Of a stretch of DNA of 64,000 nt, positions 25,397 to 42,601 are shown in pieces; the first letter of the stretch is position 1, and every line of letters starts with the position of its first letter. The position numbers were made by a program, and so were the translations under genes. The notes beneath the pieces were generated by a model. That model was not told the origin of the DNA and did not search any database. It was given only the letters and a program-made list of their open reading frames with translations. Source of the stretch: Sphingomonas sanguinis (GTDB lineage: Bacteria; Pseudomonadota; Alphaproteobacteria; Sphingomonadales; Sphingomonadaceae); assembly GCF_019297835.1 (NCBI RefSeq), contig NZ_CP079203.1, forward strand, positions 655,001 to 719,000, given 5' to 3'.

Positions 25397-26641
25397 TCAG
25401 CCGGTCGCCAGCAACCACCCGTCGGGCAGGAAATCGACTGACATATAATAATAAAAGGCGCAGCTGCCGTCGCCACCGCGATAGCTGCCGCCCTTAACGA
25501 TGCCGTAAGCGATGCCGCCCAGAAACACCGGTCCGCCGCTATCGCCGCTACGACAGGTCGGTCCGCGCACTGCTACCCAGGTCGGCGTGCAGCCACCGCC
25601 GCACAGGTCTCCGGCCGGGGCGAAATCAGGTATCCAGACTTCGGCACAGCTATAGCCGGTCCGCTCGCCGCGGTGGCAGACGATGTCGCCCGCGCGGGTC
25701 TGGTCGCGGGATCGCTGCCCGGTCACGCTGCGGCTGACCGTCTTGGCCGTGTCGCTCCAGAAGGCGGGAAGCAGTGGCACGGGGCTGCCATTCACCTGCA
25801 CATCCTGATAGCCCCATCCCCATTGCCCCAGAAAGGGCAGCGGATGCTCGCGGCGCTCGGCATCGGTCCAGACCAGATTGTCGGGGCAATGGGCGGCGGT
25901 GACGACCGCGCTGTCACGCCCACGCCGAACGACGAAGCCGCTGGTGCAGGCATAGCGTCGACCATTGCCGGGATCGATACCGGTCAGCCGCGCGCCACCT
26001 TGAAGGTCGGCCAGATCGCTGTCTGGCGCATCTAGCGTCGCGATCCGCACCGGCACGCCTGCGATCCGGGCGATCCGGTCGCGCAAGGCATCGCCCGGCT
26101 CCGCTTCGGCATCCGCGCGCGAGACCATCACGACCAGCGCTCCGATCCGGGGATCGACACCGATGCCTGGCGGCTGGGTTAGGCTCGCGCGTATCTCCGT
26201 CTGGTGGAGCGCCAGGGCGACGATCAGCTGGCTATGGGTCGCATAGGCGCCGGTGCGAAAGCGGACCATAACCGGGCTGCCTGCCACCTGCGCCACCCGG
26301 TCGGCAACGGGCTCGTCCCCAATCAGCAACAGGTCGATATGAAACGGCGCGTGACCGACCGACAATCCGGCAAGGCGATCGGCGAACTCGGCCTTCAGCG
26401 CATCGGTCAGCGGCACCGACGCCTCCTGCACCGCCAGTTCCCGCGCGGCCGCCGTCTGCGTCTGTCCGGACAGCGCGGCATATTCCGCTGCATCCAGTTC
26501 GAGCGCTGCTCGACCATCCAGCGGCAGCCTGCCCTGCGCGACTGCGGGGTTGGGTGACAACAGGCACATGGCAACGAGCACGAGCACGAGCAGGAAAGCC
26601 CATCTATCCCGCCAAAAAGATTTGCGCTGGTTATATCCCAT
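25397..26641 (-). CDS. secreted trypsin-like serine protease (S1) with long N-terminal region
   Basis: A 414-residue exported protease. N-terminal hydrophobic signal at about residues 14-35 (cleavage near AVAQ). Residues about 37-225 resemble a propeptide without clear motif. The catalytic domain has VVTAAHC (His251), a probable Asp280 in YQDVQV, and CRSGDSGGPVF (Ser368), with several paired cysteines (232/252, 322/332). The His and Ser motifs are certain; the Asp is my choice and would need alignment. The 22 C-terminal residues include SVDFLPDGWLLATG. Confidence 0.86.
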   Translation of the reverse strand: MGYNQRKSFWRDRWAFLLVLVLVAMCLLSPNPAVAQGRLPLDGRAALELDAAEYAALSGQTQTAAARELAVQEASVPLTDALKAEFADRLAGLSVGHAPFHIDLLLIGDEPVADRVAQVAGSPVMVRFRTGAYATHSQLIVALALHQTEIRASLTQPPGIGVDPRIGALVVMVSRADAEAEPGDALRDRIARIAGVPVRIATLDAPDSDLADLQGGARLTGIDPGNGRRYACTSGFVVRRGRDSAVVTAAHCPDNLVWTDAERREHPLPFLGQWGWGYQDVQVNGSPVPLLPAFWSDTAKTVSRSVTGQRSRDQTRAGDIVCHRGERTGYSCAEVWIPDFAPAGDLCGGGCTPTWVAVRGPTCRSGDSGGPVFLGGIAYGIVKGGSYRGGDGSCAFYYYMSVDFLPDGWLLATG

Positions 26642-29114: not shown

Positions 29115-31457
29115 ATGCTCAACATCGTGGGTTGCATCATCGGCCAGCATGATCCCTGGCTCATATTGCCGGCGTTCGGCGTCTGCGTCCTCGGGCTGGT
29201 GGCGTTGTTCCTGCTCCATAATCGTTCCGAGGAATGCGTCGAAATTCGGCGACGCAACTGGGTCGCGCTGGCGGCGATAACCGGCGGCGTCAGTATCTGG
29301 TGCACGCACTTCCTGGCGATGCTGGCCTATCACGGGCCGCTGCCGCTGGGGTTCGACCTGCCGCTGACCCTGGTCTCGATCGCCGCGCCGTGCCTGACCA
29401 TCTGGGCCGCACTCGCCTATATCCGGCGCAGGAAGGACTTGTCGGGCAGTCTGGTGGTCGGCAGCCTGATTACCGTCGGCGTCGGCACCATGCACCTGCT
29501 CGGCATGGCCGCACTGATCGTGCCCGCGCAAATCCATTACGAGCTGGTGGATCTGATCGCTGCGCTGATCGGCGCGATGCTATTCCTGTCCGCCGCCTTC
29601 TACATTCATGCCGAGTTGCGCGGCCCCAGCCGCCTGATCCTGTCCGTCGTGGCTGCGGCGCTCGGTATCGGCGTGCTGCATTTCGGGGCGATGACCGCCA
29701 CCACGCTGATCCCCGGCGGCGTCGTGGTCGATCCCGGTCTCCAGACCATCCAGCCCCGCATCCTCGCACGCCTCGTCGGCTTCGTGACCGCGACGATGGT
29801 GGCGGCCGTGGTCGCCGCCGCGCTGGTCGACCGCCTGCTGACCGACCTGCGTGGCCTGACCCAAGCCACCCGCGAGGGGATCGCGATCCTGCATCATGGG
29901 CGGATCGTGGAGGCCAATGCACGGCTGGCAACGATGCTGAATGTCGAGGCGAGCCGTTTGCCCCGTTCCCGACCCAATGACTGGCTCGAAGCCATCGACG
30001 GCACCGACCTGACCTCGATGGCAGAGGGCGTATCAGTCGAAACCCGCCCGCGCGGTGCGGGATCGTCCGACCGCTGCCTGGAAGTCGCGGCCCATGAGAT
30101 CGAGTATCGCGGCCGTCGCGCAACCGTGATGGCCGTGCGCGACCTGACCGAACAGCGCCGGGCCCAGCGCCAGATCGAGTTCATGGCAGTCCACGACTCG
30201 CTAACCGAACTCCCCAATCGTGCCTATTTTACTCAGGCGCTCGAAAGCGCGATCGCGCAGGCCGATCAGAAAGGGCCGTTCGCGCTGCTCGCGCTCGACC
30301 TCGATCGGTTCAAGGCTGTGAACGACCTTTTCGGCCACGCTGCGGGCGATGCCATACTCTGCCGGGTCGCGGCCATACTGACCAAGGTCATCGACGAAGC
30401 GGGCGTGGTGGCGCGCGTGGGCGGCGATGAGTTCCTGATCCTGCAGCGCGGGCTGGAAGACCCCGAATGCGTCCGCAGGCTGACCGAGACGATCCTGGAG
30501 TCGTTCGCAGCCGAAATGGACCTCAGCCGGGACCCCATGGCGGTGGGGGTCAGCATCGGCGTCTCGCTCTTTCCCCAGGATGCGACCGATGCCCAGACGC
30601 TGCGCCAGAATGCCGATGTCGCGCTCTACCGTGCCAAGACCAGCGGCCGGGGCACCGCGTCCTTCTTTGATCAGGACATGGACCGCACGATGCGCAAGCG
30701 GCTGGCCCTGGAGCACGACCTGCGCCACGCCCTGCTGCGCAACCAGATGAGACTGGTCTATCAGCCGCTGGTATCGACCGACAGCGCCGAGATCATCGGC
30801 CATGAGGCGTTGCTACGCTGGGAACATCCCGAACGCGGCTCGGTCGAGCCGCTCGAGTTCGTGCCGCTGGCGGAGGAAACGGGCATCATCCTGCAACTGG
30901 GCGAATGGGTGCTGGCGACGGCATGCCGCACCGCCGCCTCCTGGCCCGCGCCGATGACGCTGGCGGTCAACGTCTCGCCGATCCAGTTCCAGCTCCCCAA
31001 CCTAGCCGAGATCGTTGCGCGCGCGCTGAACGACAGCGGCTTTCCGGCGCATCGGCTGGAGCTGGAGATTACCGAGAACGTCCTGCTCCACGACCGCGCG
31101 TCGACCCTTAAGACCCTGCACCAGCTGAAGGCGATGGGCGTGGGCATCGTCATGGACGATTTCGGAACGGGCTACAGCTCGCTCAGCAATCTGCGATGCT
31201 TCCCGTTCGACAAGATCAAGATCGACAAGAGCTTCATTTCAGGCGTGACCACCGATGCCGCCGCACGCTCGATCATCCGGGCGATCGTCGGGCTGGGGCA
31301 GAGCCTGAACCTGCCCGTCGTCGCCGAAGGGGTCGAGACGGCCGAACAGCATCGCATGGTGCTGGAGGAAGGATGCCCCCAGGCCCAGGGTTATCTGTTC
31401 GGCCGCCCCGCCCAACCTTTGGTCGGGGCTCAGCCCTTGGCCAGAGCGCTACGCTGA
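29115..31457 (+). CDS. MHYT-PAS-GGDEF-EAL c-di-GMP turnover protein
   Basis: A 780-residue membrane protein that probably both makes and degrades cyclic di-GMP. The N-terminal seven-helix MHYT domain shows its three repeats (WCTHFLAML, GTMHLLGMA, LHFGAMT), proposed to bind a metal or sense a gas. A PAS-like segment follows (EGIAILHHGRIVEANARLATML). The GGDEF motif is intact at residues 436-440 (RVGGDEFLIL), and the EAL motif at 564-566 (GHEALLRWEHP), with DDFGTGYSSLSNL. Both catalytic sites look active. Start ATG 29115 begins the membrane domain. Its last 28 bases overlap the convergent permease. Confidence 0.93.
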   Translation: MLNIVGCIIGQHDPWLILPAFGVCVLGLVALFLLHNRSEECVEIRRRNWVALAAITGGVSIWCTHFLAMLAYHGPLPLGFDLPLTLVSIAAPCLTIWAALAYIRRRKDLSGSLVVGSLITVGVGTMHLLGMAALIVPAQIHYELVDLIAALIGAMLFLSAAFYIHAELRGPSRLILSVVAAALGIGVLHFGAMTATTLIPGGVVVDPGLQTIQPRILARLVGFVTATMVAAVVAAALVDRLLTDLRGLTQATREGIAILHHGRIVEANARLATMLNVEASRLPRSRPNDWLEAIDGTDLTSMAEGVSVETRPRGAGSSDRCLEVAAHEIEYRGRRATVMAVRDLTEQRRAQRQIEFMAVHDSLTELPNRAYFTQALESAIAQADQKGPFALLALDLDRFKAVNDLFGHAAGDAILCRVAAILTKVIDEAGVVARVGGDEFLILQRGLEDPECVRRLTETILESFAAEMDLSRDPMAVGVSIGVSLFPQDATDAQTLRQNADVALYRAKTSGRGTASFFDQDMDRTMRKRLALEHDLRHALLRNQMRLVYQPLVSTDSAEIIGHEALLRWEHPERGSVEPLEFVPLAEETGIILQLGEWVLATACRTAASWPAPMTLAVNVSPIQFQLPNLAEIVARALNDSGFPAHRLELEITENVLLHDRASTLKTLHQLKAMGVGIVMDDFGTGYSSLSNLRCFPFDKIKIDKSFISGVTTDAAARSIIRAIVGLGQSLNLPVVAEGVETAEQHRMVLEEGCPQAQGYLFGRPAQPLVGAQPLARALR

Positions 31458-32833
31458 CGCCCATAGGCGAAATAGAAGGCCAGGCCCGCCAGGTTCCAGA
31501 TGATAAAGCGGACGATGGTCGCGCTGGGCAGGCTGAACAGCAGGTAGATGCAGCCCAGAATGGCGAGCGTACCGACCAGATAGGGCTGCGGACAACGGAA
31601 CAGCCGCTTGGCCTCCGGTGCCCGGCGTCGCAGGACCATCAGGCAGGCGCCAACCGCAATGAAGGCGAGCAACGTGCCCGCATTGGCCAGCTCGGCAATC
31701 TCGTCGAGCCGGAAGATGCCTGCGACGATCGCGATCGATACGCCCGTGACCAGCGTGATGCGGGTCGGCGCACCGCTGCGCTTGCTGACCACGGCCAGTG
31801 CCTGTGGCAGCAGGCCGTCACGTGCCATGGTGAAGAAGATGCGGCTCTGGCCGTACATCATCACCAGGATGACCGAGGGCAGCGCGATGACCGCCGCCAG
31901 CGCGATCAGATGCGCGGCGGTCGGCTGGCCCAGCGAGCGCAGGACGAGCGCCAGAGGCTCGGGCGAATTGGCGAGCTGCTGGAAGGGCAGCGCGCCCACC
32001 GCGGTCACTGCGACCGCCATATAGATCAGTGTGCAGACCAGCATCGATCCGACGATGCCTATGGTCAGGTCGCGGCCGGGGTTCTTGGCCTCCTCGGCCG
32101 AGGTCGCCACCGCATCGAAGCCGTAAAAAGCGAAGAACACGATCGCCGCCGCCGCCATGACGCCGCGCTTGGCCCCGTCGACCTCGGTCGCACCGAAGCC
32201 ATAGGGCATGAAGGGATGAAGATTGGCATTGTTGAACGCGGGCAGCGCGAAGGCGACGAACACGCCCAGGGCGACCAGCTTCACGACGACCAGAATGATA
32301 TTCAGCGTGGCGCTCTCCCGCGTGCCGGCGACCAGCATCCCCATCACCGACAGCGCGACCAGCACGGCGGGCAGGTTGATGATGCCGCCGCCATGCGGCC
32401 CGGAGAGCAGCTCGGGCGGCAGATGCACCCCCGCCGCCTGGATCCAGCCGACCAGATAGCCCGACCAGCCGACCGCGACGGTCGAACAGGCCAGCGAATA
32501 TTCGAGGATCAGGCTCCACCCCACGACCCAGGCGAGCGTTTCGCCCAGCGCGGTGTAGCTAAAGGTATAAGCGCTGCCCGCCGCCGGGATCAGCGTCGCC
32601 AGCTCGGCATAGGCGAGCGCGGCACAGGCGCAGACGGCACCCGCAATGGCAAAGGCCAGAATGACAGCGGGGCCAGCCCGCTCGGCTCCCACGCCGGTCA
32701 GCGTATAGATGCCGGTGCCGACGATCGCGCCGACTCCCAGAGCGATCAGGTGCGGCCAGCTGAGCGTCTTGGCCAGCGCCTGCCCCTCCGCGTGCTGGGT
32801 GACGCTACCCAGCGACTTTCTTGGTCCGAACAT
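31430..32833 (-). CDS. APC family amino-acid permease
   Basis: A 467-residue transporter with about 12 transmembrane helices. The first carries the family signature GVGAIVGTGIYTLTG; GSAYTFSYTALGETLAWVVGWSLILEY, FFAFYGFDAVATSAEEAKNPGRDLTIGI and the LRRRAPEAKRLFRCP cytoplasmic loop are typical of cationic/neutral amino-acid (CAT/YfnA-like) permeases. Substrate is not readable. It lies 36 bases after the GntR gene on the same strand, so I place it in the same transcription unit and infer an amino-acid substrate relevant to that operon. Confidence 0.9.
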   Translation of the reverse strand: MFGPRKSLGSVTQHAEGQALAKTLSWPHLIALGVGAIVGTGIYTLTGVGAERAGPAVILAFAIAGAVCACAALAYAELATLIPAAGSAYTFSYTALGETLAWVVGWSLILEYSLACSTVAVGWSGYLVGWIQAAGVHLPPELLSGPHGGGIINLPAVLVALSVMGMLVAGTRESATLNIILVVVKLVALGVFVAFALPAFNNANLHPFMPYGFGATEVDGAKRGVMAAAAIVFFAFYGFDAVATSAEEAKNPGRDLTIGIVGSMLVCTLIYMAVAVTAVGALPFQQLANSPEPLALVLRSLGQPTAAHLIALAAVIALPSVILVMMYGQSRIFFTMARDGLLPQALAVVSKRSGAPTRITLVTGVSIAIVAGIFRLDEIAELANAGTLLAFIAVGACLMVLRRRAPEAKRLFRCPQPYLVGTLAILGCIYLLFSLPSATIVRFIIWNLAGLAFYFAYGRQRSALAKG

Positions 32834-32869
32834 CGTCGAAAAATCCCCCGCCCTCTTGGCTTGTCATTG

Positions 32870-33580
32870 TCAGTCGACGGGCGCGAACCCGCCTTTCAGG
32901 TCCATCAGCGTGGACCGGATATGCGTATCAAGCAATGCCTTAACCCGGTCGGCGTCGCGCGCCAGAAAGGCGTCGAGCTGTTCGCGATGCTCCAGATGCG
33001 CCCGTGCGTCGCGCCCGGCGGGCTGCAGATGCGCGACGACATAACGCTCGGCGAGCAGCGCGAGTTGACGGATCAACTGGATCGTCAGGGCCTGCCGTGT
33101 CGGGCGGACCATCGCCATGTGGAATTTCCGGTTGCAGATGGCGACGCGCGCCAGATCGCTGGCCGCCGCCTGGTCCAGCGACTCGAACGCGGCGACGAGT
33201 GCCGCGCGATCCTCGTCATCGGCGACGAGCGCCGCCCGCGCCGCCGCCGCCGGTTCCAGCTTCAGGCGCAGGCCGTAGATGTCCTCGGCCTGCGCAGCGG
33301 AAAGCGCGCCGATCATATAGCCGCGATTGGCGACGCCGTGGAGCAGCCCCTCCTGCTCCAGTCGGGCCATCGCCTCGCGCAGCGGTATCTTGCTGACGCC
33401 GAGTTCGGCGGCCAGCGCATCCTGGCGGATCGGTCGATCGGCGGGGATGACCCCCGCGATGATCCGTTCGCGCACGATCGCGAAGATGCGATCCGCCAGC
33501 GTCTGCACGACGATGACGCCCTCGCCCCGATGACGCCCGTCATCCAGGGCGTAGTCCGGTTGCAAGGGCATCGTCGCCAT
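32870..33580 (-). CDS. GntR family regulator, FCD type, of the GH127/lyase locus
   Basis: A 236-residue regulator: winged helix (IRQDALAAELGVSKIPLREAMARLEQEGLL, about residues 47-77) and FCD ligand domain (HM--VRPTRQALTIQLIRQLALLAERYVV). The ATG at 33580 overlaps the stop of the DapA-like gene as TGATG. The N-terminal ~20 residues before VVQTLADRIF are poorly conserved with its paralogue at 22375. Palindromic GTATAC sites at two promoters of this locus are the best candidates for its operators. Confidence 0.9.
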   Translation of the reverse strand: MATMPLQPDYALDDGRHRGEGVIVVQTLADRIFAIVRERIIAGVIPADRPIRQDALAAELGVSKIPLREAMARLEQEGLLHGVANRGYMIGALSAAQAEDIYGLRLKLEPAAAARAALVADDEDRAALVAAFESLDQAAASDLARVAICNRKFHMAMVRPTRQALTIQLIRQLALLAERYVVAHLQPAGRDARAHLEHREQLDAFLARDADRVKALLDTHIRSTLMDLKGGFAPVD

Positions 33581-34494
33581 CAGGCGGCCTTGGCCTGGCC
33601 CAGCGTCGGGCGGGTCGCGGCGGCCTTTTCGACCATCGCGATCACCTCGGCGCGGCGCTCGCCTTCGAGCACATAACGCGGCGGCAGGACGCGCTCCGAA
33701 CCGCGACCCATGACCTGCTCGGCCAGCTTGATCGACTGGACCAGATCATGCTCGGCATCGAGGTGGAGGAGCGGCATGAACCAGCGATAGATTTCCATCG
33801 CCTTGGCATGATCGCCGCGATCGAACGCCGCTACCAGCTCAACCGACTCCTTCGGGAAGGCGTTGGTCAGGCCCGAAACCCAGCCCTGCGCGCCGAGATA
33901 CAGACCCTCGAGCGCCACGTCGTCGAGACCGGCGAACAGGGTGTAGCGATCGCCGAACGCATTGCGGAAATCGGTGAAGCGACGCGTGTCGGGGGCCGAC
34001 TCCTTGACCGCAACGATGTTCTTCACGTCGACCAGCGCCTCGAGAACCGTCTGGTCGATAACCGTGCGGTACGCGGGCGGGTTGTTGTAGAGCATGATCG
34101 GCAGGCCGGTCTGGTCGGCCACGCCCTTGAAGTGGTTCACCAACTCATGCGCCTTGGGCACATAAACCATCGGCGGCAGCAGCATCAGGCCGTCGGCCCC
34201 GGCCTTTTCGGCGGCCTGCGCGTAACGCACGGCGCGGCGCGTGTCATATTCCGAAACGCCGGTGATGACCGGCACGCGGCCCGCCACCGCCTCGACGATG
34301 GCGGTCAGCACCGTCACCTTCTCGTCATAGTCGAGCGAGTTGTTCTCGCCGACCGTGCCGAGCGCGATCACGCCGGTAACGCCATCATTGACCAGATCGT
34401 CGACGACACGCTGCGTATCGGCGAGGTCGATCGAAAGATCTTCCCGGACCTGGGTCGTCACTGCGGGGAATACGCCGCGCCAGCCGATGCTCAC
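33580..34494 (-). CDS. DapA-superfamily lyase, candidate hydroxyproline-pathway deaminase (LhpC-like)
   Basis: A 304-residue TIM-barrel lyase. It has the superfamily Schiff-base Lys164 (IVAVKESAPDTRR) and Tyr136 (LYNNPPAYR) but lacks the PGRT and GTTGE motifs of DapA (here GTVGENNS). The C-terminal LHLDAEHDLVQSIKLAEQVMGRGSE is, as I recall, seen in members placed beside hydroxyproline genes (1-pyrroline-4-hydroxy-2-carboxylate deaminase). 2-keto-3-deoxy-L-arabonate dehydratase is the main alternative. Start GTG 34494, preceded by AGGAAG at seven bases. Product of the first gene of a lyase-gntR-permease unit. Confidence 0.78.
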   Translation of the reverse strand: MSIGWRGVFPAVTTQVREDLSIDLADTQRVVDDLVNDGVTGVIALGTVGENNSLDYDEKVTVLTAIVEAVAGRVPVITGVSEYDTRRAVRYAQAAEKAGADGLMLLPPMVYVPKAHELVNHFKGVADQTGLPIMLYNNPPAYRTVIDQTVLEALVDVKNIVAVKESAPDTRRFTDFRNAFGDRYTLFAGLDDVALEGLYLGAQGWVSGLTNAFPKESVELVAAFDRGDHAKAMEIYRWFMPLLHLDAEHDLVQSIKLAEQVMGRGSERVLPPRYVLEGERRAEVIAMVEKAAATRPTLGQAKAA

Positions 34495-34525
34495 AATCTG
34501 TCTTCCTGCTACTGTTTTAGATATC

Positions 34526-34562
34526 GTATACTGTTTCTAACGGGCAAATCGGATGGGGTCAA
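34526..34562 (-). promoter_or_regulatory. promoter with GTATAC palindrome for the lyase-gntR-permease unit
   Basis: Minus strand: TTGACC at 34562-34557, 17 bases, TAGAAA at 34539-34534, then ACAGTATACGATAT with the GTATAC core at 34531-34526. The 7-mer AACAGTA occurs twice downstream of the -10. The same arrangement occurs at 39807-39773 upstream of GH127. GTATAC cores are usual for FCD-type GntR operators. Confidence 0.6.
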
Positions 34563-34564
34563 TG

Positions 34565-36352
34565 TCATTCCTCATCCGGATAGGGGCCTTTTCCACCTTC
34601 TGCGATGAAACGATCGGTGCGTTGCTCGATCACGGGCAGCGGTACATAGCCGAGTTGCAGCATCGCATCATGCCAGGCGCGGATGTTGAACTTCGGCCCC
34701 AGCGCCTTTTCGGCCTTGGCCCGTGCCTTCTGGAAGGCGAGCTGGCCCATATAATAGGACAGCGCCTGCCCCGGCCATGCGATATAGCGGTCGACTTCGG
34801 TCTCGATCTCGTGATCCGACAAAGCGGTATTGTCGTGGAGATAAGCCTGCGCCTTCTCCCGGCTCCACCCCATGGCGTGGATGCCGGTATCGACGACCAA
34901 CCGCGCCGCGCGCCACGCCTGATAGGACAGCATCCCGAAGCGGTCATAGGGCGTCTTGTAGAAACCCATATCCTCACCCAGCGCCTCGCAATACAGCGCC
35001 CAGCCCTCTCCATAGGCCGAAAGATAGCTGTCGCGCCGGAACGCGGGCAGGCTCTTATTCTCCGCCGCCAGCGGCATCTGGAACGCATGGCCCGGCGCGC
35101 TTTCGTGCAGCGTCAGGGCGGGCATAGCGTATAGCGAACGCGACGGCAGATTGTAGGTGTTGACCAGATAGACGCCGGTCCCGCCGCGCCCGGCGGTGTA
35201 GAAGGGCGCGATATCGGCGGGTACCGGCTTGATCGCGAACCGGCTGCGCGGCAGGCGACCGAACCAGTCGGAGGCGATCCCGTCGAAGCTCTTGGCCAGC
35301 CACGCCGCCTTGTCGAGCAACTCTTGCGGCGTCTTGGGATAGAATTGCGGATCGGTACGCAGGAAGGTCAGGAAGGCAGGAAAGTCGCCCTTGAACTTCA
35401 CCTCCTTCATCACGCCGTCCATCCGCGCACGGATACGCTGCATCTCCGACAGGCCAATCGCATGGACCTGTTCGGGCGTCAGGTCGGCGGTGACATATTC
35501 GCGGATCTTGGACCGGTAATAGGCCTTGCCGTCGGGCAGATCATAGGCCGCCGTGCTGACCTGCGCGCGCGGGATATAGTCGTTGCGCAGGAAGGTCAGC
35601 AGCCGCTGATGCGCGGGCAGGACGTCGTCGCGGATCGCCGCTTTCGCCTCGGCTCGCAGCGCGGCGGCGGTCGCCGGCGTCATGGTGGCGGGCATGGTCT
35701 TGAACGGCTCGTAAAAGGGCTGCGCGTCGCCGACCCCGGCGTCCACCACCTGCGCCACGCCGATGTCGCGACCCGTCAGCGTGATGCGCGGCACCGTAAA
35801 GCCGCGCGCAAGACCGGCGCGCATGTTCGCGATCTGCTGGTCGTAATAGCGCGGCATCTGGTGCAGCATGGCGATGTAATCGCGATACTGGCTCTCCTTG
35901 GTGAAGCTGCCTCGCGCCCAACTGGCCAGATTGCCCCAGAAGCTGGTGTCCGAATTGAGCGGCTTTTCATATTCGCGGAACCGCTGTGCGGCGAGCAGCG
36001 CGTCGATCTGGCCGCGATAGACCACATAGTCGGTGCGCACGTCGGGGGAGAGTTTTGCCGGATCGATCGCGTCGAGCGCCTTGGCGGTCGCCTCCCATCT
36101 CGCCAGTCGCGCGGCTTGCGCGGCGGGGCCGACATCGGGCAATTGCCGCGAACCCGCGCTGCCGCTGTCCTCATCGGCGGCGGCCTGGCTGATCCGCCAC
36201 TGATATTCGGCATCCGACAGCGCGCGAAAGCGGGCGTCCGGCGTGGCCGCGACCTTGCGGGTGGCCTGGGAGCGACCCTTGGCCTGCGCCGCGCCCGGCG
36301 ACATAGCCGCCAGAGCCGCTCCTGCCAGCAGCCATCCGATCCGGTTCGTCAT
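34565..36352 (-). CDS. DUF885 secreted metallopeptidase-like protein
   Basis: A 595-residue exported helical protein. Signal MTNRIGWLLAGAALAAMSPGAAQA. The zinc motif HESAPGH (416-422) and EGWALYCEALGEDMG are hallmarks of DUF885, a family related to M32-type carboxypeptidases and annotated as hydrolases of unknown substrate. ATG 36352 was chosen because AAAGGGGG lies seven bases upstream; the frame also allows a TTG at 36373. The gene begins 17 bases after the imine reductase stop and is therefore in the same operon as GH127. Confidence 0.88.
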   Translation of the reverse strand: MTNRIGWLLAGAALAAMSPGAAQAKGRSQATRKVAATPDARFRALSDAEYQWRISQAAADEDSGSAGSRQLPDVGPAAQAARLARWEATAKALDAIDPAKLSPDVRTDYVVYRGQIDALLAAQRFREYEKPLNSDTSFWGNLASWARGSFTKESQYRDYIAMLHQMPRYYDQQIANMRAGLARGFTVPRITLTGRDIGVAQVVDAGVGDAQPFYEPFKTMPATMTPATAAALRAEAKAAIRDDVLPAHQRLLTFLRNDYIPRAQVSTAAYDLPDGKAYYRSKIREYVTADLTPEQVHAIGLSEMQRIRARMDGVMKEVKFKGDFPAFLTFLRTDPQFYPKTPQELLDKAAWLAKSFDGIASDWFGRLPRSRFAIKPVPADIAPFYTAGRGGTGVYLVNTYNLPSRSLYAMPALTLHESAPGHAFQMPLAAENKSLPAFRRDSYLSAYGEGWALYCEALGEDMGFYKTPYDRFGMLSYQAWRAARLVVDTGIHAMGWSREKAQAYLHDNTALSDHEIETEVDRYIAWPGQALSYYMGQLAFQKARAKAEKALGPKFNIRAWHDAMLQLGYVPLPVIEQRTDRFIAEGGKGPYPDEE

Positions 36353-36369
36353 GCTTATACCCCCTTTGC

Positions 36370-37380
36370 TCAACCCTTCAGCGCCGTCACGTCCCGGTAG
36401 AGATCGGCCGAAATCTCGACCCCCTCGACCAGCGAAACCTGACGCGCCGTGTAGCGGCGGGCGGAAGGCAGCCGTGCCCCCTGCCCCGTGATCGCCCCGA
36501 ACATCGCCTCGGCCCGATCCTGATGCTCGGGTAGAAGATCACCGAGGAACCCATTGGGATCGATCGCAATAATCAACTCGCCACCCAACGGCGAACCGCC
36601 ACGCCCGCCGTCCCATTCGATCGACTCCCGGCTCGTCATATCGCCGATCAGAGGACCGGCGAGCAGTTCGACCATCGCCGCCAGCGCCGATCCCTTGTGC
36701 CCGCCGAATGTCCGCATCGCGCCGGACAGGATCGCGGCCGGGTCGCTGGTCGGCTTACCCTCGCTATCGACGCCCCAGTCGTCGGGCACGCTCTTGCCCG
36801 CCCGGCGATGGAGTTCGATTTCGCCGCGCGCGACCATGGAAGTGGCGAAGTCGAAGACGAAGGGCGGCCCGTCCGGGCGTGGCCAGCCGAAGGCGATGGG
36901 ATTTGTGCCGAACACCGGCTCCGCCCCGCCCGACGGCGCGACCCAGGCATGGCTGGGCGTGAAGGCGAGCGCGACCAGTCCCTCCTCCGCCAGTTCCTCC
37001 ACTTCGGGCCAGAGCGCGGCAAAATGGACGACATTGTTGAGGGCCAGCGCAGCGATGCCGTTCCCCCTGGCCTTCTCGATCAGGGCGGGCTTGCCGGTCT
37101 GAAAGGCGAGTTGTGCAAAGCCGCCGCCGCCATCGACACGGACCAGCGCGCGGGCGGGATGCGACAGCACCGGCTCGGCATCGGGGACGACCACGCCCTT
37201 CTCGATACTGGAGACCGCGACCAGCAGGCGGTAGATACCGTGCGAGGCGCATCCGTCGCGCTCGCCCGCTACCATCGTCTCGGCGACCGCCTCGGCATGG
37301 GCAGGGGCCAGTCCCGCACCCAGCAGCTTGGCCCGCGCCAGCGCCCGCAATTCGTCCAGCGTCATCCGCACGCAGGTCAC
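36370..37380 (-). CDS. Ldh2-type imine reductase, DpkA/LhpD-like (delta1-piperideine/pyrroline-2-carboxylate reductase)
   Basis: A 336-residue NAD(P)H oxidoreductase of the malate/L-lactate dehydrogenase 2 family. ASHGIYRL, VVHFAALWPEVEELAEEGLVAL, GTNPIAFGWPR, FDFATSMVARGEIE and FGGHKGSALAAMVELLAG are the motifs. From memory they follow Pseudomonas DpkA more closely than malate or ureidoglycolate dehydrogenase, which suggests reduction of a cyclic imino acid to proline or pipecolate. It starts at a GTG overlapping the GH127 stop as GTGA; an ATG five codons in is possible. Substrate is an inference. Confidence 0.78.
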   Translation of the reverse strand: MTCVRMTLDELRALARAKLLGAGLAPAHAEAVAETMVAGERDGCASHGIYRLLVAVSSIEKGVVVPDAEPVLSHPARALVRVDGGGGFAQLAFQTGKPALIEKARGNGIAALALNNVVHFAALWPEVEELAEEGLVALAFTPSHAWVAPSGGAEPVFGTNPIAFGWPRPDGPPFVFDFATSMVARGEIELHRRAGKSVPDDWGVDSEGKPTSDPAAILSGAMRTFGGHKGSALAAMVELLAGPLIGDMTSRESIEWDGGRGGSPLGGELIIAIDPNGFLGDLLPEHQDRAEAMFGAITGQGARLPSARRYTARQVSLVEGVEISADLYRDVTALKG

Positions 37381-39752
37381 GCCGTCGCCCCCGGCTTGGC
37401 CGCGAACAGCCGCATGCCGAAGATCGGCCCCGCCGAGCTGCGATCATGCGGCACGATGCGCACCCGCACGCTCTTCTTGCCCGCCGTCAGCGCAGGCGGC
37501 AACGGATATTCGACGTCGAAGAAAGCGCCCGGCTTGTCGTTCTCCAGATGCTGGGTCGCGACCTTCACATTGTCGACCAATATGTCGAAGTCCCGCGCGC
37601 GCTCTTCGCCCCAATAGGTACCCTGCAGGATCATCGGGCCGGGGCGCACCGCCATGGTGAACTCGAAATAGCCGCCCGACCGCGCATCGCGCCCCTGCCG
37701 CCCGCGATAGGAGACGGGGTAGGAAATGTCCGAGGTCAGCCCATGGTCGCGCTCGGGTTGCATCTCGCCGAGATGCATGACGTCGACCGAGCGGGCCGCA
37801 ATGTCGCGGGCCTTCGCCTGATCGGCCAGGAAGGCCGCCTCCTGCGCTTTCCACCCGGCATCGGTGAAGCGCTTGAAATAGACCGCGCTGCGCCGGTCAT
37901 ACTGGCTGAAGAAGGGTACGAAGCTCAGGTCCGCCGGACGGAAGATCCCCGCCGTCCTGTATCGCGCGGTCGCCGGATCGGCGGCGGTGAAGCCCGCCAG
38001 CGGATTGGCGCCGACCAGCACCGGGTCGGGCGAGTCCCACTTGTCCTCGCGCCCGCCCAGATCGGCCGCCATCACCATCGGTCCGCGCAGGACCGCCACG
38101 ACGCTATCGTCGCCGGGCGTCGTTTCGACCCGAAGGTCGAGCGGCAGGCGGATGGAAACCGTGTCCCCGGCCTTCCACCGACGATCGACCACAGCATAGC
38201 CCCGCTCGAAGCGCGGGGATACGGCGTGGCCGTTGACCTCGACCTGCGCCTGGCCGTTCGCCCAGCCCGGCACACGCAGCGCCAGCGGGAAGCGACCCGC
38301 CCGGTCGAGCCGCGTGAAGCTCAACCTCGCCTGCCCTTCCATCGGATAGGCGGTGTCGAGCGTCACGATCGCGCCGCGCTTCTCCCACCGGGCCTCTGCC
38401 GGGATGTAGAGATTGACGAAGAAGGTGTCGCCGCCCTGCCAGAAGATGGACTCGCCATGCTTTGCGTGAGCCTCCATCCCCGAGCCAACGCAGCACCAGA
38501 AGGCATCGTCCTTGTTAGTCGAAAACTCGCGCACCACGCCGCTCATCAGCGGCGTCATATAGGTGAAGCCGCCAGTTTGCGGATTTTGCGCGGCCATGGC
38601 GTGGTTCAGGTGCGCGCGCTCATAATAGTCGAAATAGCGCCCATCCGGCTGCCAGCCATAGAGATGCCGGGTCAGCTTCATCATGTTGTAGGTGTTGCAA
38701 TGCTCGCACGTCTGGTCGGTGATGTGCCGGGCGATCGTATCGGGTTCGGAGAAATACTCCCGGTCCGCATTGCCGCCGATGACATAGCTGTGATGCCCCG
38801 TCACCGTTTCCCAGAAGAAGCTCGCGCCCTTGGCGGGTTCGGCCTTGCCGGTGATCTCGTGGATGCGCGCCAGGCCGATCAGCTTGGGCACCTGGGTATT
38901 GGCGTGGAAATTGGCGAGCTTGTCCTCGCCCGCCACCAGCGGGTCGAGCACCTTGCGGTCATAGATGCGCTCGGCGAGCGCCAGCCACTGGCGGTCGTTG
39001 GTCCGCTGATAGAGTTCGGCATAGCTTTCGTTCAGCCCGCCATATTCACAGCCCAGCACCTTCTGCATCTGTTCGTCGTCAAGCGCGGCGAAGACGCGTG
39101 CGAAATAGCCGCCCAGCTTGACCGCGACGTCGAGCGCCTGCGCATTGCCCCAGCCGCCATGAATGTCGAGCAGCCCGGCAAACAGCTTGTGCACCGTATA
39201 GAGCGGCGACCACGACCCGTTGAGGTCGAATCCACCTGACTTGATCTTGCCCGCCATGATTTCGGGGAAAATCTCCTCGCCATCGACCACCGTGCCGTCC
39301 GCGCGCTTGCGGCCGAGCGCGCCGACATAGCCGGTCCCGCGCTTGGCTTGCGCCTCGGCCAGTTCGGCCACGATATAGTCGGCACGGCGGCGCATCTCGG
39401 TATCGCCGGTCTGCTGCCAGGTCAGCACCAGCGCCGACATGTAATGGCCGAGCGTATGGCCCGCGATCGTGTCGCTCTCCCACCCGCCATAGATCGGCGC
39501 CTTGGGTTCCAGTCCTGCATATTTGCGGAAATTGTACAGCAGCCGATCGGGACTGAGGCGGTAGAGATAACGGCGGTTGGTCTCGACGGCGGTCGCATAG
39601 ACGGACGGGCGCAGTCGCACCGCCGACAGTGGCAGCGGCTCCGCCTTGGCCGGGAGGATCGACGGCGCGGCCCCCACCGCCCGCGTCGCTATTCCCATCA
39701 ACGCGACGCCCGCCGCCCCCTGCATCCATTCCCGCCTGCTCGACCGCAGCAT
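37377..39752 (-). CDS. GH127 family beta-L-arabinofuranosidase-type glycosidase, Tat-exported
   Basis: A 791-residue exoglycosidase (DUF1680). The N-terminus has a twin-arginine signal, SSRREWMQGAAGVALMG. The catalytic residues of HypBA1 are present: Glu350 and Cys352 in CEHC, and Cys420-Cys421 in FWCCVGSGMEAHAKHGESIFWQ; Glu332 may be the acid/base. These correspond to HypBA1 Glu338, Cys340, Cys417 and Cys418. HypBA1 removes beta-1,2-L-arabinofuranosyl units from hydroxyproline-linked arabinan chains of extensin; related families (GH146) act on other linkages. First gene of a three-gene operon; GGGAGAG precedes the ATG. Confidence 0.92.
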   Translation of the reverse strand: MLRSSRREWMQGAAGVALMGIATRAVGAAPSILPAKAEPLPLSAVRLRPSVYATAVETNRRYLYRLSPDRLLYNFRKYAGLEPKAPIYGGWESDTIAGHTLGHYMSALVLTWQQTGDTEMRRRADYIVAELAEAQAKRGTGYVGALGRKRADGTVVDGEEIFPEIMAGKIKSGGFDLNGSWSPLYTVHKLFAGLLDIHGGWGNAQALDVAVKLGGYFARVFAALDDEQMQKVLGCEYGGLNESYAELYQRTNDRQWLALAERIYDRKVLDPLVAGEDKLANFHANTQVPKLIGLARIHEITGKAEPAKGASFFWETVTGHHSYVIGGNADREYFSEPDTIARHITDQTCEHCNTYNMMKLTRHLYGWQPDGRYFDYYERAHLNHAMAAQNPQTGGFTYMTPLMSGVVREFSTNKDDAFWCCVGSGMEAHAKHGESIFWQGGDTFFVNLYIPAEARWEKRGAIVTLDTAYPMEGQARLSFTRLDRAGRFPLALRVPGWANGQAQVEVNGHAVSPRFERGYAVVDRRWKAGDTVSIRLPLDLRVETTPGDDSVVAVLRGPMVMAADLGGREDKWDSPDPVLVGANPLAGFTAADPATARYRTAGIFRPADLSFVPFFSQYDRRSAVYFKRFTDAGWKAQEAAFLADQAKARDIAARSVDVMHLGEMQPERDHGLTSDISYPVSYRGRQGRDARSGGYFEFTMAVRPGPMILQGTYWGEERARDFDILVDNVKVATQHLENDKPGAFFDVEYPLPPALTAGKKSVRVRIVPHDRSSAGPIFGMRLFAAKPGATA

Positions 39753-39772
39753 CTTGCTCTCCCGGTAATACT

Positions 39773-39807
39773 GTATACCAATATAGCCAGAACGGGAGGG
39801 GGGTCAA
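39773..39807 (-). promoter_or_regulatory. promoter with GTATAC palindrome upstream of GH127
   Basis: Minus strand: TTGACC at 39807-39802, 16 bases, TATATT at 39785-39780, then GGTATACAG with the GTATAC core at 39778-39773. It is almost the same layout as at 34562. The site is in the 104-base divergent gap and could also control the DUF5695 gene on the other strand. Confidence 0.65.
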
Positions 39808-39856
39808 TTGCGATGGTCCCGCAGAGGAGCTTCCCGAGGTCAGGGATTTTATCGTC

Positions 39857-42601
39857 ATGCGCCAAAGCCTTATCCGCCTTTTGCCAGTCACGCTGGCCAC
39901 CCTTTCGGTCGTCGCCAGCGCCCATGACGCAGGCGTCCAAACGCAGCAGGAAACTGCCAATGATTCGCAAGAAGCCGCGACTTCGCGCTTTCGGGTCGGG
40001 GCGTTCCAACTGATCCTCGACCCCGCCAGCCAGACGGCGCGCGGCCTTTCGCCGATTGCGACGCCGGGCTTCGACTTTCTGCCGATCGGCCGTGCCAAGG
40101 AGCGCGCGGGCAATGGTTACAACCATCTGGGCGACATCCATCTGCGGCTGCGCCAGGGGGGCGGCGCGTGGCAGGATTATTCGTCCTCGCATGAACGGCG
40201 GCCGGTGCGGGCGCTGCCTGCTCGCGGGGCGGTGCTGGCGAAGGCGGACATCAGCGCGTCGACGGGGACCGGCCTGCCGCTGCGCATCGTGCGAGAGTGG
40301 GTGAACGACAAGGGCACTCCTACCCTGCGGTTCACCCTGACCAACACCTCCGCCACGCCGGTCGAGATCGGGGGCCTCGGCCTGCCGATGGTGTTCGACA
40401 ACATCATCACCGACCGGACTCTGGAACAGGCCCATGCGCAGGCGAGCTTCGCCGACCCCTATATCGGGCGGGACGCTGGCTATGTGCAGGTCACGCGGCT
40501 GAATGGCGCAGGCCCGGCGCTGCTCGTCATTCCGGAACGCGGGACGCCGCTGGAAGCCTATGTACCGATCCCCACGGTGCGCGAGACCGGTGGCAAGGCG
40601 GTCATTTCGGAGGCGAGCCCCCGCGCGCAGACTTCGGAAGGCTTTTACGACTGGACCATCGCCAGCGCCGCCTATGCCCAGACTGATTGGAAGAGGGGTA
40701 CACCCTGGAACGAAGCGACCAGCTTCTCGCTCGCACCCGGCCAGAGCCGCACGATCGGCCTGCGCCTCGTCACCGCGCCCAGCATCCGCGCGATCGAGCC
40801 GACGCTGACGGCGCAGGGATGTCCCGTCGTGGTCGGCGTGCCCGGCTATGTCGTGCCGACCGATCTGGAGGCATCGCTGTTCGTGCGCTCGCCATCCGCG
40901 ATCACCGGCATCGCCAGCTATCCGGCGGGGGCGCTGGACGTGACCAAGGCACCAGGCAAGCCGGGCTGGACGCGCCTGTCGGTACGCGGGCGGCAATGGG
41001 GCCGGGCGCGCCTGACTCTCACCTATGCCGATGGTCAGGTCCAGACGGTCCAGTATTTCGTCACCAAGCCGCTCGAACAGACGATGGCCGATCTAGGCCG
41101 CTTCTCGACCACCAAACAGTGGTTCGAGGGCAAGGGCGATCCCTTTGGCCGCTCGCCCGCCATCCTGACCTATGACCGTGAGGCCGATAGCATCGTCACC
41201 GCCGACCCGCGCGTCTGGATTTCGGGCATGAGCGACGAGGGCGGCGCGGGCAGCTGGGTCGCGGCAGTGATGAAGCAACTCGACAACCCCAACGCAGCGG
41301 AAATCGCGCGCATTGAGGAGCTGGTCGACAAGACGGTGGTCGGGCGGCTGCAGGTCGCCGATGGTACTCATGCGGGCGGCGTCAAGAAGAGCCTGTTCTA
41401 TTATGATCCGGCCGCCTTTCCGAACCTCTACCAACCGGCCAAAGACTGGCAGAGCTGGACCTCGTGGAAGAAGGATCAGGCCGACGATCTGGGCCGCGCC
41501 TATAACTACCCGCATGTCGCGGCGGGCCATTGGGCGCTGTACCGGATCGCGCGCAACCATGCCGGGCTGACGCGGGTGCATGACTGGCCATGGTATCTCG
41601 ACCATGCCTATCAGACGATCGTCGCGATGATGCGCGACGCGCCGCATTATGCGCAGTTCGGACTGATGGAGGGCGATGTCTTCGTCGACATCCTGACCGA
41701 CCTGAAGCGCGAAGGCTGGACCGACAAGGCCGCCGAGGTCGAACGCCTGATGAAGGGACGCGCGGACCACTGGCGCACCCTGCAATATCCGTTCGGCAGC
41801 GAGATGGCCTGGGACTCCACCGGCCAAGCCGAGGTCTATGCCTGGATGCGCTATTTCGGTTACGGTCCCCAGGCCGATGTCACGCGTGAGGTCATTCTGG
41901 GCTATGACCCGTCGATCCCGCACTGGGGCTATAACGGCAATGCGCGGCGTTATTGGGACTTCCTCTACGGCGGCAAATATCCGCGACTGGAGCGGCAGAT
42001 CCATCATTACGGGTCGACGCTGAACGCCATTCCGCTGTTCGATTCGTTCCGCCGCAATCCCGCCGACATGCATCTGCTGCGCGTCGCCTATGGCGGGTTG
42101 ATGGGCGGCATCACCAATATCGACCAGAGTGGTGCATCCTCGGCCGCCTTCCACAGCTGGCCCGACCGGATGGAATGGGACCCGTATAGCGGCGATTATG
42201 GAATGGGTTTTTTCGGTCATGCCTATGCCGCCGCGACCTATGTGGTGAACGATCCGACGCTGGGCTGGCTCTCCTATGGCGGAAACCTGTCGCAGAACGG
42301 CGGGCGTGTGCATGTCGAGCCGCATGACGGGGCGCGAGCGCGGGTCTTCGTTGCGCCGGTCGGACTTTGGCTGACGCTGGAGGCGGGCAAGATCAAGGCG
42401 GTGGATTATGATCCGGCGAGCGGCGCGGTCCGCCTGACCCTCGACCCGGCCACGGGCGACACACCCGCCGCGCGTCTGTTCGTCGAGACGACGACGCCCG
42501 GCGGCCGCCCCTATCGCCCCGATCGCGGGACGTTCGAGCGTGGCGGTTACACCGTGCCGCTGTCGGGCACGGCCTCCAAACTGGTCTTGTCCGCCAGATA
42601 G
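39857..42601 (+). CDS. large secreted DUF5695-like protein, possible (alpha/alpha)6-barrel glycosidase
   Basis: A 914-residue exported protein, signal MRQSLIRLLPVTLATLSVVASA. The first ~430 residues are beta-rich (two or more beta-sandwich segments). Residues about 470-800 are helical, with Trp/Tyr/His-rich motifs such as HWALYRIARN, DWPWYLDHAYQTIVAMMRDAP, FGSEMAWDSTGQAEVYAW, and PHWGYNGNARRYWDFLYGGK. A C-terminal beta domain closes it. The pattern suggests a carbohydrate-active (alpha/alpha)6 barrel with acidic residues at FGSEMAWD and MEGDVFVD, but I know of no proven activity. Divergent from GH127. The 3' end overlaps mutT by 55 bases. Confidence 0.72.
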   Translation: MRQSLIRLLPVTLATLSVVASAHDAGVQTQQETANDSQEAATSRFRVGAFQLILDPASQTARGLSPIATPGFDFLPIGRAKERAGNGYNHLGDIHLRLRQGGGAWQDYSSSHERRPVRALPARGAVLAKADISASTGTGLPLRIVREWVNDKGTPTLRFTLTNTSATPVEIGGLGLPMVFDNIITDRTLEQAHAQASFADPYIGRDAGYVQVTRLNGAGPALLVIPERGTPLEAYVPIPTVRETGGKAVISEASPRAQTSEGFYDWTIASAAYAQTDWKRGTPWNEATSFSLAPGQSRTIGLRLVTAPSIRAIEPTLTAQGCPVVVGVPGYVVPTDLEASLFVRSPSAITGIASYPAGALDVTKAPGKPGWTRLSVRGRQWGRARLTLTYADGQVQTVQYFVTKPLEQTMADLGRFSTTKQWFEGKGDPFGRSPAILTYDREADSIVTADPRVWISGMSDEGGAGSWVAAVMKQLDNPNAAEIARIEELVDKTVVGRLQVADGTHAGGVKKSLFYYDPAAFPNLYQPAKDWQSWTSWKKDQADDLGRAYNYPHVAAGHWALYRIARNHAGLTRVHDWPWYLDHAYQTIVAMMRDAPHYAQFGLMEGDVFVDILTDLKREGWTDKAAEVERLMKGRADHWRTLQYPFGSEMAWDSTGQAEVYAWMRYFGYGPQADVTREVILGYDPSIPHWGYNGNARRYWDFLYGGKYPRLERQIHHYGSTLNAIPLFDSFRRNPADMHLLRVAYGGLMGGITNIDQSGASSAAFHSWPDRMEWDPYSGDYGMGFFGHAYAAATYVVNDPTLGWLSYGGNLSQNGGRVHVEPHDGARARVFVAPVGLWLTLEAGKIKAVDYDPASGAVRLTLDPATGDTPAARLFVETTTPGGRPYRPDRGTFERGGYTVPLSGTASKLVLSAR

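Follow-up and report, generated by a model that had tools for sequence, protein, structure and literature searches.

A candidate operator links an arabinosidase operon to a split hydroxyproline pathway in Sphingomonas sanguinis: a probable route to plant hydroxyproline-rich glycoproteins

Genes and features of the locus

The window analysed here is a stretch of 64,000 nucleotides (nt) from Sphingomonas sanguinis (contig NZ_CP079203.1, positions 655,001 to 719,000). According to a Pfam search, its interval 31430-42601 is filled by six genes on the minus strand and one divergent gene on the plus strand (Table 1). Operon 1 encodes a beta-L-arabinofuranosidase, an Ldh2-family reductase and a DUF885 protein; operon 2 encodes a DapA-family lyase, a GntR/FCD regulator and an APC permease; the divergent gene encodes a DUF5695 protein. 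Both operons and a distant pair of hydroxyproline genes bear the same candidate operator. Together they quite probably form a HypR-like hydroxyproline regulon which is extended upstream to arabinosylated hydroxyproline-rich plant glycoproteins (extensins and/or arabinogalactan proteins).

The initial annotation of the interval described six minus-strand genes in two tightly packed units. All six are present with strong Pfam matches, and the packing is borne out by overlaps of 4 nt (GH127/Ldh2) and 1 nt (lyase/GntR) and by gaps of 17 nt (Ldh2-DUF885), 70 nt (DUF885-lyase) and 36 nt (GntR-APC). That description left out the plus-strand DUF5695 gene. No terminator-like site was found on the minus strand of the six-gene set. 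The arabinosidase has the catalytic and middle GH127 domains, plus a DUF6805 domain.

A promoter-like sequence, TTGACC-16-TATATT, lies just before the arabinosidase gene (39807-39780), although 1.5 such sites are expected by chance in the stretch for the one that was found. The first operator copy is just downstream of its -10 element, a position which would suit repression. By eye, export-signal-like N termini are seen in the arabinosidase (Tat-like, SRREWMQGAAG), DUF885 and DUF5695, and no such stretch is seen in the lyase and Ldh2.

Table 1. Genes and candidate operator copies (window coordinates, except for copy 3)
Feature	Position	Strand	Remarks
GH127/GH146-type beta-L-arabinofuranosidase	37377..39752	-	791 residues; first gene of operon 1; PF07944, PF20736, PF20620
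Ldh2-family reductase, probable 1-pyrroline-2-carboxylate/1-piperideine-2-carboxylate reductase	36370..37380	-	operon 1; PF02615
DUF885 metallopeptidase-like protein	34565..36352	-	operon 1; HE-x4-H motif, Glu downstream; export predicted by eye
DapA-family lyase	33580..34494	-	first gene of operon 2
GntR/FCD regulator, HypR-like, candidate operator reader	32870..33580	-	operon 2; PF00392, PF07729
APC amino-acid permease, probable hydroxyproline/proline uptake	31430..32833	-	operon 2; PF13520
DUF5695 protein, PL27-like fold	39857..42601	+	divergent from operon 1; secretion predicted by eye
Candidate operator copy 1 (GTATACAGTAT)	39768..39778	-	15 bp upstream of arabinosidase start; exact genome scan
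Candidate operator copy 2 (GTATACGATAT)	34521..34531	-	26 bp upstream of lyase start; exact genome scan
Candidate operator copy 3	C1:1923387-1923397 (outside window)		between epimerase and D-hydroxyproline dehydrogenase genes

A hydroxyproline pathway split between two loci

Over 296 residues, the lyase shares 50% identity with the DapA-family (DHDPS) protein of the Pseudomonas aeruginosa lhp cluster, and it is 63-91% identical to 21 lyases whose genes adjoin that of a 4-hydroxyproline epimerase. Its identity is 27-33% to biosynthetic DapA, the third DapA paralogue of the genome, HypD of S. meliloti, the Pseudoalteromonas hyp lyase, KdgD and the DapA protein of an arabinonate cluster. In a tree of the lyases, S. 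meliloti HypD, the P. aeruginosa lhp protein and the other paralogues are on long branches and poorly resolved; identities and gene order were used instead. The likeness to LhpC that had been noted at first is supported by these data, and we predict with little doubt that the window lyase is the third-step enzyme of the hydroxyproline pathway, an lhp-type deaminase.

A close relative of the lyase (E<=1e-75) is present in 22 of 199 sphingomonad genomes and a close 4-hydroxyproline epimerase in 24 of them. In 21 of these 22 lyase-bearing genomes, the ends of the two matches are separated by -6 to 31 bp. The sole exception is the S. sanguinis genome studied here, in which the epimerase and D-hydroxyproline dehydrogenase genes (C1:1,922,352-1,924,673) are 1.23 Mb away from the window. 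The region C1:1.918-1.925 Mb groups the epimerase and the FAD dehydrogenase with an Xaa-Pro (M24) peptidase and a serine carboxypeptidase (S10). Three DapA-family genes are found in the genome and none of them is at this distant locus, so the window lyase fills the gap. Hydroxyproline breakdown had been assigned to the interval as a whole; the interval holds the third step, and the first two enzymes are encoded at the distant locus.

The epimerase gene is the only PF05544 gene of the genome. Its product has a Cys/Cys pair; in the two T3-hydroxyproline dehydratases used for comparison, Thr takes the place of the second Cys. The D-hydroxyproline dehydrogenase is a DAO-family (FAD) protein encoded divergently from the epimerase, and its substrate is predicted by orthology. 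The alpha-ketoglutarate semialdehyde dehydrogenase, 49% identical to the aldehyde dehydrogenase of the P. aeruginosa lhp cluster, is encoded at C1:3283696, inside a pentose-type locus.

The best solved relative of Ldh2 is delta1-piperideine-2-carboxylate reductase (1wtj/2cwh, 244 bits; the next scores 141). The protein is 64% identical to LhpD of P. aeruginosa and 54% identical to the Ldh protein of the S. meliloti hyp locus, which agrees with its earlier comparison to DpkA/LhpD, and no other PF02615 match is present in the genome. The Ldh2-type family has been placed by its neighbourhood with proline-racemase-superfamily genes (PMC4113996; here and below, citations refer to parts of the cited texts). 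Most likely, Ldh2 would salvage 1-pyrroline-2-carboxylate which arises from proline processed by the epimerase and the D-hydroxyproline dehydrogenase. The dehydration of trans-3-hydroxyproline by a proline-racemase-family enzyme was considered as another source of this compound and rejected, because the sole PF05544 protein is of the Cys/Cys type and, by the rule of the same study, not a trans-3-hydroxyproline dehydratase.

The initial annotation had also proposed an operon for L-arabinose, in which the DapA-type lyase would be an L-2-keto-3-deoxyarabonate (KDA) dehydratase. DapA-family KDA dehydratases exist, and the gene of a 74% identical lyase in R. etli adjoins an annotated arabinonate dehydratase, which counts against the hydroxyproline assignment; the neighbouring GntR protein in R. 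etli nevertheless shares 61% identity with the GntR of the hyp locus in S. meliloti. The arabinose proposal is disfavored by the adjacency of lyase and epimerase in 21 of 22 genomes, and by a separate pentose-type locus at 3.27-3.29 Mb, which encodes an MFS transporter, an IlvD/Edd protein, an FAA-hydrolase family protein, an SMP-30 lactonase, a GntR regulator and the only close semialdehyde dehydrogenase. If the FAA-hydrolase-type protein is a 2-keto-3-deoxypentonate dehydratase, which is presumably the role of its family, no DapA-type KDA dehydratase is required, and one seems needless in this genome. From this gene context, the arabinose reading is very improbable. As to arabinonate clusters, the lyase is 32% identical to the DapA protein of that of Paracoccus (L025), a reference which is not close to a labelled KDA dehydratase, and no DapA relative was found in that of Sinorhizobium (L023).

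The arabinosidase and its clade

The best solved relatives of the arabinosidase are 5opj (458 bits), 8k7x (167 bits) and 3wkw (55 bits), which we take to be BT0349 (GH146), Bll3HypBA1 (GH146) and HypBA1 (GH127), respectively. Since 5opj scores far above 3wkw, the enzyme is classed as GH146-like, and GH127 proper (HypBA1 type) is ruled out as its family name. Residues E350, C352, C420 and C421, aligned with the catalytic and zinc residues (one Glu and three Cys), are invariant in 42/42 homologues compared. Thus, the first description of the protein, a GH127 enzyme with all metal/Cys residues, was right about the residues but not about the family. XeHypBA1, a GH146 enzyme from Xanthomonas, cleaves arabinofuranosyl (Araf)-beta-hydroxyproline (Hyp), mainly Araf-beta1-Hyp (PMC10850190, PMC6085000).

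In a tree of 42 arabinosidases, the window protein belongs to a clade of 24 (100/99). The lyase, epimerase, dehydrogenase or Xaa-Pro peptidase is encoded in the same stretch for 18 of these 24; three others have only Ldh2 and DUF885 (L009, L010, L101), and the last three have neither set (L054, L059, L060). In two of the latter (L059 and L060), the lyase and epimerase genes are on other contigs of the same assemblies. None of the 18 arabinosidases outside the clade has hydroxyproline genes or the Ldh2+DUF885 pair in its stretch. Two matches were not counted as links: a 51% identical DUF885 relative at L059, and a DapA-family match of 32% over 63% of the query at L072, outside the clade.

The genome contains a second GH127-family gene (C1:2054192-2055790, L110). 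Its product is 37-40% identical, belongs to another clade and has no hydroxyproline neighbors.

Linkage and co-occurrence in relatives

The neighbors of 23 arabinosidase sites outside this genome were taken from stretches of 18-20 kb. A single 20-kb piece (L051, genome G112) encodes the APC permease, epimerase, lyase, dehydrogenase, Xaa-Pro peptidase, DUF885, Ldh2, GH127 and DUF5695. L097, from the same genus, has the epimerase, dehydrogenase, Xaa-Pro peptidase, arabinosidase, DUF5695, Ldh2, lyase, APC permease and two GntR proteins, without DUF885. Of the 11 stretches among L051-L073 with a lyase or epimerase gene, 7 also encode an APC relative. Most genes of the cluster are together in the laboratory strain Sphingobium sp. 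SYK-6 (L136, L064). In Novosphingobium RL4, one cluster comprises GntR, GH127, Ldh2+DUF885, GH43, a TonB receptor, the lyase and the epimerase. The two halves of the pathway are on different plasmid records in S. parapaucimobilis YK209.

Fifteen of the 199 sphingomonad genomes hold a member of the arabinosidase clade (at least 56% identity). The epimerase is present in all 15, versus 9 of the 184 other genomes; the lyase is present in 14/15 versus 8/184, and Ldh2 (at least 60% identity) in 11/15 versus 1/184. Three genomes with only a 46-49% identical arabinosidase paralogue have neither lyase nor epimerase.

Linkage in named genomes was computed on the best 80 of 586 relatives. Where the GH127 protein is at least 52% identical, 27 of 44 loci have a gene of hydroxyproline catabolism no more than 10 kb away; below this value, 1 of 36 does. 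The first group includes contigs of Caulobacter, Nitrospirillum/Azospirillum/Niveispirillum, Acetobacter and Granulicella. The identity cut-offs (52, 54 and 56%) were chosen after the data had been seen, and linkage was computed at all three. As the loci are related, the Fisher and binomial values for linkage, co-occurrence and the operator counts below overstate their independence.

Outside Proteobacteria, an arabinosidase-family gene adjoins distant relatives of the epimerase and the lyase in Granulicella paludicola (L141) and Cohnella silvisoli (L190). The Granulicella locus also has a 48% identical semialdehyde dehydrogenase, and this arrangement was possibly assembled independently. In another class, an arabinosidase/DUF885/DUF5695/Xaa-Pro cluster (L098, 12467-17766) lies beside a WYL-domain protein and the Cas1 and Cas3 proteins of a type I-F CRISPR system.

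A shared candidate operator

The pattern GTATACRRTAT occurs exactly three times in the 4.37 Mb genome: before the arabinosidase gene, before the lyase gene, and between the epimerase and dehydrogenase genes. The reversed control pattern has no copy in the same genome. In 12 other genomes, 31 copies are found, of which 22 are inside the cluster, 26 within 10 kb and 29 within 21 kb, and the 2 elsewhere are both in G175; the reversed control has 9 copies in all in these genomes. The core, GTATAC, is present in both window promoters, in the epimerase/dehydrogenase promoter and in the promoter of the Xaa-Pro peptidase gene.

In 110 related loci, GTATAC is found at 142 of 484 probe-gene starts, compared to at most 34 for 23 other palindromes; the runner-up, GATATC (34/484), is itself part of the extended site. 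The core precedes 31/37 lyase, 16/20 dehydrogenase, 4/24 Xaa-Pro peptidase and 0/23 APC genes, and the consensus of the operator across loci is close to ATATCGTATACGATAT. The core also precedes 48 of the 62 arabinosidase genes of the clade, versus 0 of 55 others. Duplicate loci (L118, L123, L136, L139) were left out of the counts of the 484 starts and of the arabinosidase cores, and L146, whose upstream region is cut, was left out of the latter. When the window alone is searched for GTATACNATATC with at most 2 mismatches, 4 sites are found versus 2.5 expected, which is not above chance; the case for the operator depends on the exact scan of the whole genome and on the relatives.

The core is also seen in loci of known hydroxyproline pathways. 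In P. aeruginosa, it precedes the lyase gene of the lhp cluster and the gene of a transporter. The hyp locus of Pseudoalteromonas has it at three promoters: those of the lyase and of a TonB receptor, and that between the dehydrogenase and epimerase genes. In S. meliloti, it is close to the genes of Ldh and of a transporter, but not to the DapA gene. Thus, the switch looks like the hydroxyproline type that is already known, and what appears to be new is the set of genes it governs. The hyp genes of S. meliloti are repressed by HypR, whose inducer is hydroxyproline (PMC5343134). Five GntR proteins from four hydroxyproline loci of sphingomonads are 50-59% identical to the GntR protein of operon 2; those of the hyp loci of Pseudoalteromonas and S. 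meliloti are 34% and 28% identical to it, respectively.

From these sites, the co-regulation of the arabinosidase, lyase and epimerase genes through the shared operator is highly likely. The proposal of the initial annotation that an arabinosidase, a peptidase, an uptake system and hydroxyproline breakdown belong together is supported by the gene order in relatives, by co-occurrence and by this operator.

Several observations weigh against a regulon of this kind. Three sites of the S. sanguinis genome served to fit the pattern (the test on 12 genomes is independent of the fit), and the test genomes were selected for holding the cluster. The site of the Xaa-Pro peptidase gene matches the core only, not the extended pattern. 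Genome G168 has the cluster and no exact copy of the operator; the core is missing before 14 of the 62 clade arabinosidase genes, at the semialdehyde dehydrogenase locus (L111), and in the R. etli and Neorhizobium stretches. The GntR/FCD protein is a candidate reader of the operator by its position only, and it is 29% identical to the GntR protein of the Novosphingobium RL4 locus, which is a different GntR. Close Ldh2 relatives were not found in 4 of the 15 genomes with the arabinosidase clade, and among the best 80 of 586 relatives, 17 of the 44 loci with a close GH127 have no hydroxyproline gene within 10 kb, some of these contigs being short. In S. hankookensis (L010), GH127-Ldh2-DUF885 occurs with neither the lyase nor the epimerase gene. 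On a plasmid of Sphingomonas R1 (L009), the same trio is near a rhamnogalacturonan lyase, without the lyase or epimerase gene, so that some members of the arabinosidase group may serve pectin.

In a rival reading, the target would be pectin. The arabinosidase would cleave beta-arabinofuranosyl ends from rhamnogalacturonan or arabinan, and since the plant wall contains both substrates, the genes for hydroxyproline would be induced along with it. Apart from the R1 plasmid, this is consistent with the fact that BT0349, a characterized GH146 enzyme, belongs to a rhamnogalacturonan-I locus, and that beta-Araf occurs in rhamnogalacturonan II too (PMC10850190). On the contrary, the GH127/146 relatives of 30-52% identity lack the operator core (0/55) and have a hydroxyproline gene nearby in 1/36 cases (best 80 of 586) and 0/18 cases, whereas the clade under study mostly has both the core and hydroxyproline neighbors. 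The accompanying peptidases would also be superfluous for pectin, which is thus an unlikely explanation of the locus.

The system might otherwise scavenge hydroxyproline peptides of any origin (collagen, peptide antibiotics), with an arabinosidase recruited for an unlinked purpose. In Alteromonadales, published HypR regulons include collagenases and proline peptidases (PMC5343134), and DUF885 and the Xaa-Pro peptidase are uninformative about a glycan. But the arabinosidase gene shares the operator and comes first in the operon with Ldh2 and DUF885, and it is accompanied by GH43, a TonB receptor and the PL27-like protein in some relatives, which makes generic scavenging quite improbable. A plant hydroxyproline-rich glycoprotein is fairly likely to be the substrate.

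Among the surrounding genes, a second GntR/FCD regulator of similar kind (22375-23019, plus strand) has no GTATAC nearby; the protein which corresponds to it in L007 shares 61% identity with the GntR of operon 2. It adjoins an FAD/NAD oxidoreductase (23026-24306) and a zinc alcohol dehydrogenase (24329-25333). A trypsin-family protein with a long N-terminal part and only a weak Pfam match is encoded at 25397-26641 (minus strand). The trio of the R1 plasmid (pR1a, L009, 1-9330) is also accompanied by a DPP-IV-type peptidase and a TonB receptor, and may be a pectin-side variant.

DUF885 and DUF5695

DUF885 is metallopeptidase-like and, by eye, predicted to be exported. Ldh2 and DUF885 form a single in-frame reading frame in 4 of 6 Novosphingobium-type loci (L008, L128, L130 and L132; not L127 and L134). 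The fusion of L008 (4465-7287, 940 residues) has a signal-like stretch in its middle, which is odd for a cytoplasmic enzyme joined to an exported peptidase.

DUF5695 matches the overall fold of BACCELL_00875 (PL27), but no profile match to 5no8 was found at E<=1. PL27 enzymes are lyases of arabinogalactan-protein caps. DUF5695 may work like them, yet it is not assigned to PL27, because the fold comes without detectable sequence relatedness. A GH121 arabinobiosidase was not among the matches listed for DUF5695, an absence which does not exclude it. Because of the PL27-like fold, an arabinogalactan protein seems at least as likely as extensin to be the natural substrate.

Proposed mechanism

The scheme proposed here builds on gene content, orthology, linkage and operator distribution, which are seen in the sequence; its activities, export steps, substrate, regulator and flux are predicted. 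The exported arabinosidase would take beta-L-arabinofuranose off hydroxyproline, while the PL27-like DUF5695 protein would trim the glycan caps. The bared peptide would then be converted to hydroxyproline and proline by the exported DUF885 protein, the Xaa-Pro (M24) peptidase and the S10 carboxypeptidase, and both amino acids would be imported by the APC permease.

By orthology, the epimerase, the FAD D-hydroxyproline dehydrogenase and the window lyase are expected to convert trans-4-hydroxy-L-proline to alpha-ketoglutarate semialdehyde, which the one close semialdehyde dehydrogenase of the genome would oxidize. As a side arm, Ldh2 would reduce 1-pyrroline-2-carboxylate to L-proline. The released arabinose would be oxidized by the separate pentose locus and meet the hydroxyproline arm at alpha-ketoglutarate semialdehyde. 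Sites of the ATATCGTATACGATAT type are seen at both window operons and at the epimerase/dehydrogenase genes, and one GntR/FCD protein might switch them all.

A broader proposal is put forward only tentatively, and is somewhat doubtful as a whole. In it, a complete, operator-defined regulon for plant hydroxyproline-rich glycoproteins would be frequent in sphingomonads and partial in Caulobacteraceae, Azospirillaceae, Acetobacter and Acidobacteriota; DUF5695 would be a new family of arabinogalactan-protein-uncapping lyases and DUF885 a peptidase for hydroxyproline/proline-rich peptides, arabinose and hydroxyproline being used via one semialdehyde.

Comparison with known systems

Hydroxyproline-rich glycoproteins are major proteins of the plant wall. 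Extensin bears short arabinose chains (PMC10850190). Xanthomonas euvesicatoria has XeHypBA1, XeHypBA2 and XeHypAA, and XeHypBA1 resembles the window enzyme: it is an exo-enzyme of GH146 which cleaves arabinose-hydroxyproline on hydroxyproline-rich glycoproteins, and both proteins have 791 residues (PMC6085000, PMC10850190). The Xanthomonas system differs in that it releases arabinose, with HrpX control of the other two genes, and hydroxyproline catabolism is not in the described account (PMC6085000). HypBA1 and HypBA2 of Bifidobacterium longum likewise provide a beta-arabinofuranosidase for hydroxyproline-rich glycoproteins, but no amino-acid arm is part of the described account (PMC7263609, PMC10850190). 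The use of hydroxyproline-rich glycoproteins with GH127 was also predicted for single-cell genomes of Latescibacteria; there, arabinose and peptides would be used through separate genes, and no hydroxyproline pathway, locus or regulon is described in the text consulted (PMC4454575).

The Pseudomonas lhp (L020) and Sinorhizobium hyp (L017) loci share with the window a DapA-family deaminase, an Ldh2-type reductase and GTATAC near some genes. They differ by ABC-type uptake and by having no arabinosidase among their annotated genes (the gene tables are incomplete). The Sinorhizobium stretch holds an annotated beta-xylosidase. In the P. aeruginosa plasmid record (L020, 1734-10030), an alkaline-protease secretion operon adjoins lhpD, which recalls the collagenase-hydroxyproline pairing of Shewanella. 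For Novosphingobium, the legend of a metabolic-scheme figure in a study of the clover rhizosphere lists the epimerase and the deaminase (PMC8386446). No description of arabinose-removing enzymes and a hydroxyproline pathway as one system was found in the literature searched, most subscription journals being outside its scope.

If the proposed regulon is real, it provides a concrete substrate to test for DUF885 and DUF5695, and it suggests why some GH127/146 paralogues have no hydroxyproline neighbors. The operator and the cluster would also serve as a marker of bacteria which live on plant wall protein near roots and leaves.

The closest published parallel is that of the HypR regulons of Shewanella and other Alteromonadales. 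They have a GntR-family regulator and an epimerase-dehydrogenase-deaminase core, and they include upstream protein-degrading enzymes and proline peptidases, with TonB receptors in some and a COG531 permease in one (PMC5343134). The regulator of the window shares just 28-34% identity with the GntR proteins of the two hyp loci that were compared. The upstream part of the window system is also different: the arabinosidase, the PL27-like protein, DUF885 and sometimes GH43 fit a plant glycoprotein, not collagen. Earlier studies deal with arabinose-removing enzymes and with hydroxyproline pathways, and what appears to be new here is their union under one operator. The best reading is that the system of S. 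sanguinis is a counterpart of the published collagenase-bearing HypR regulons.

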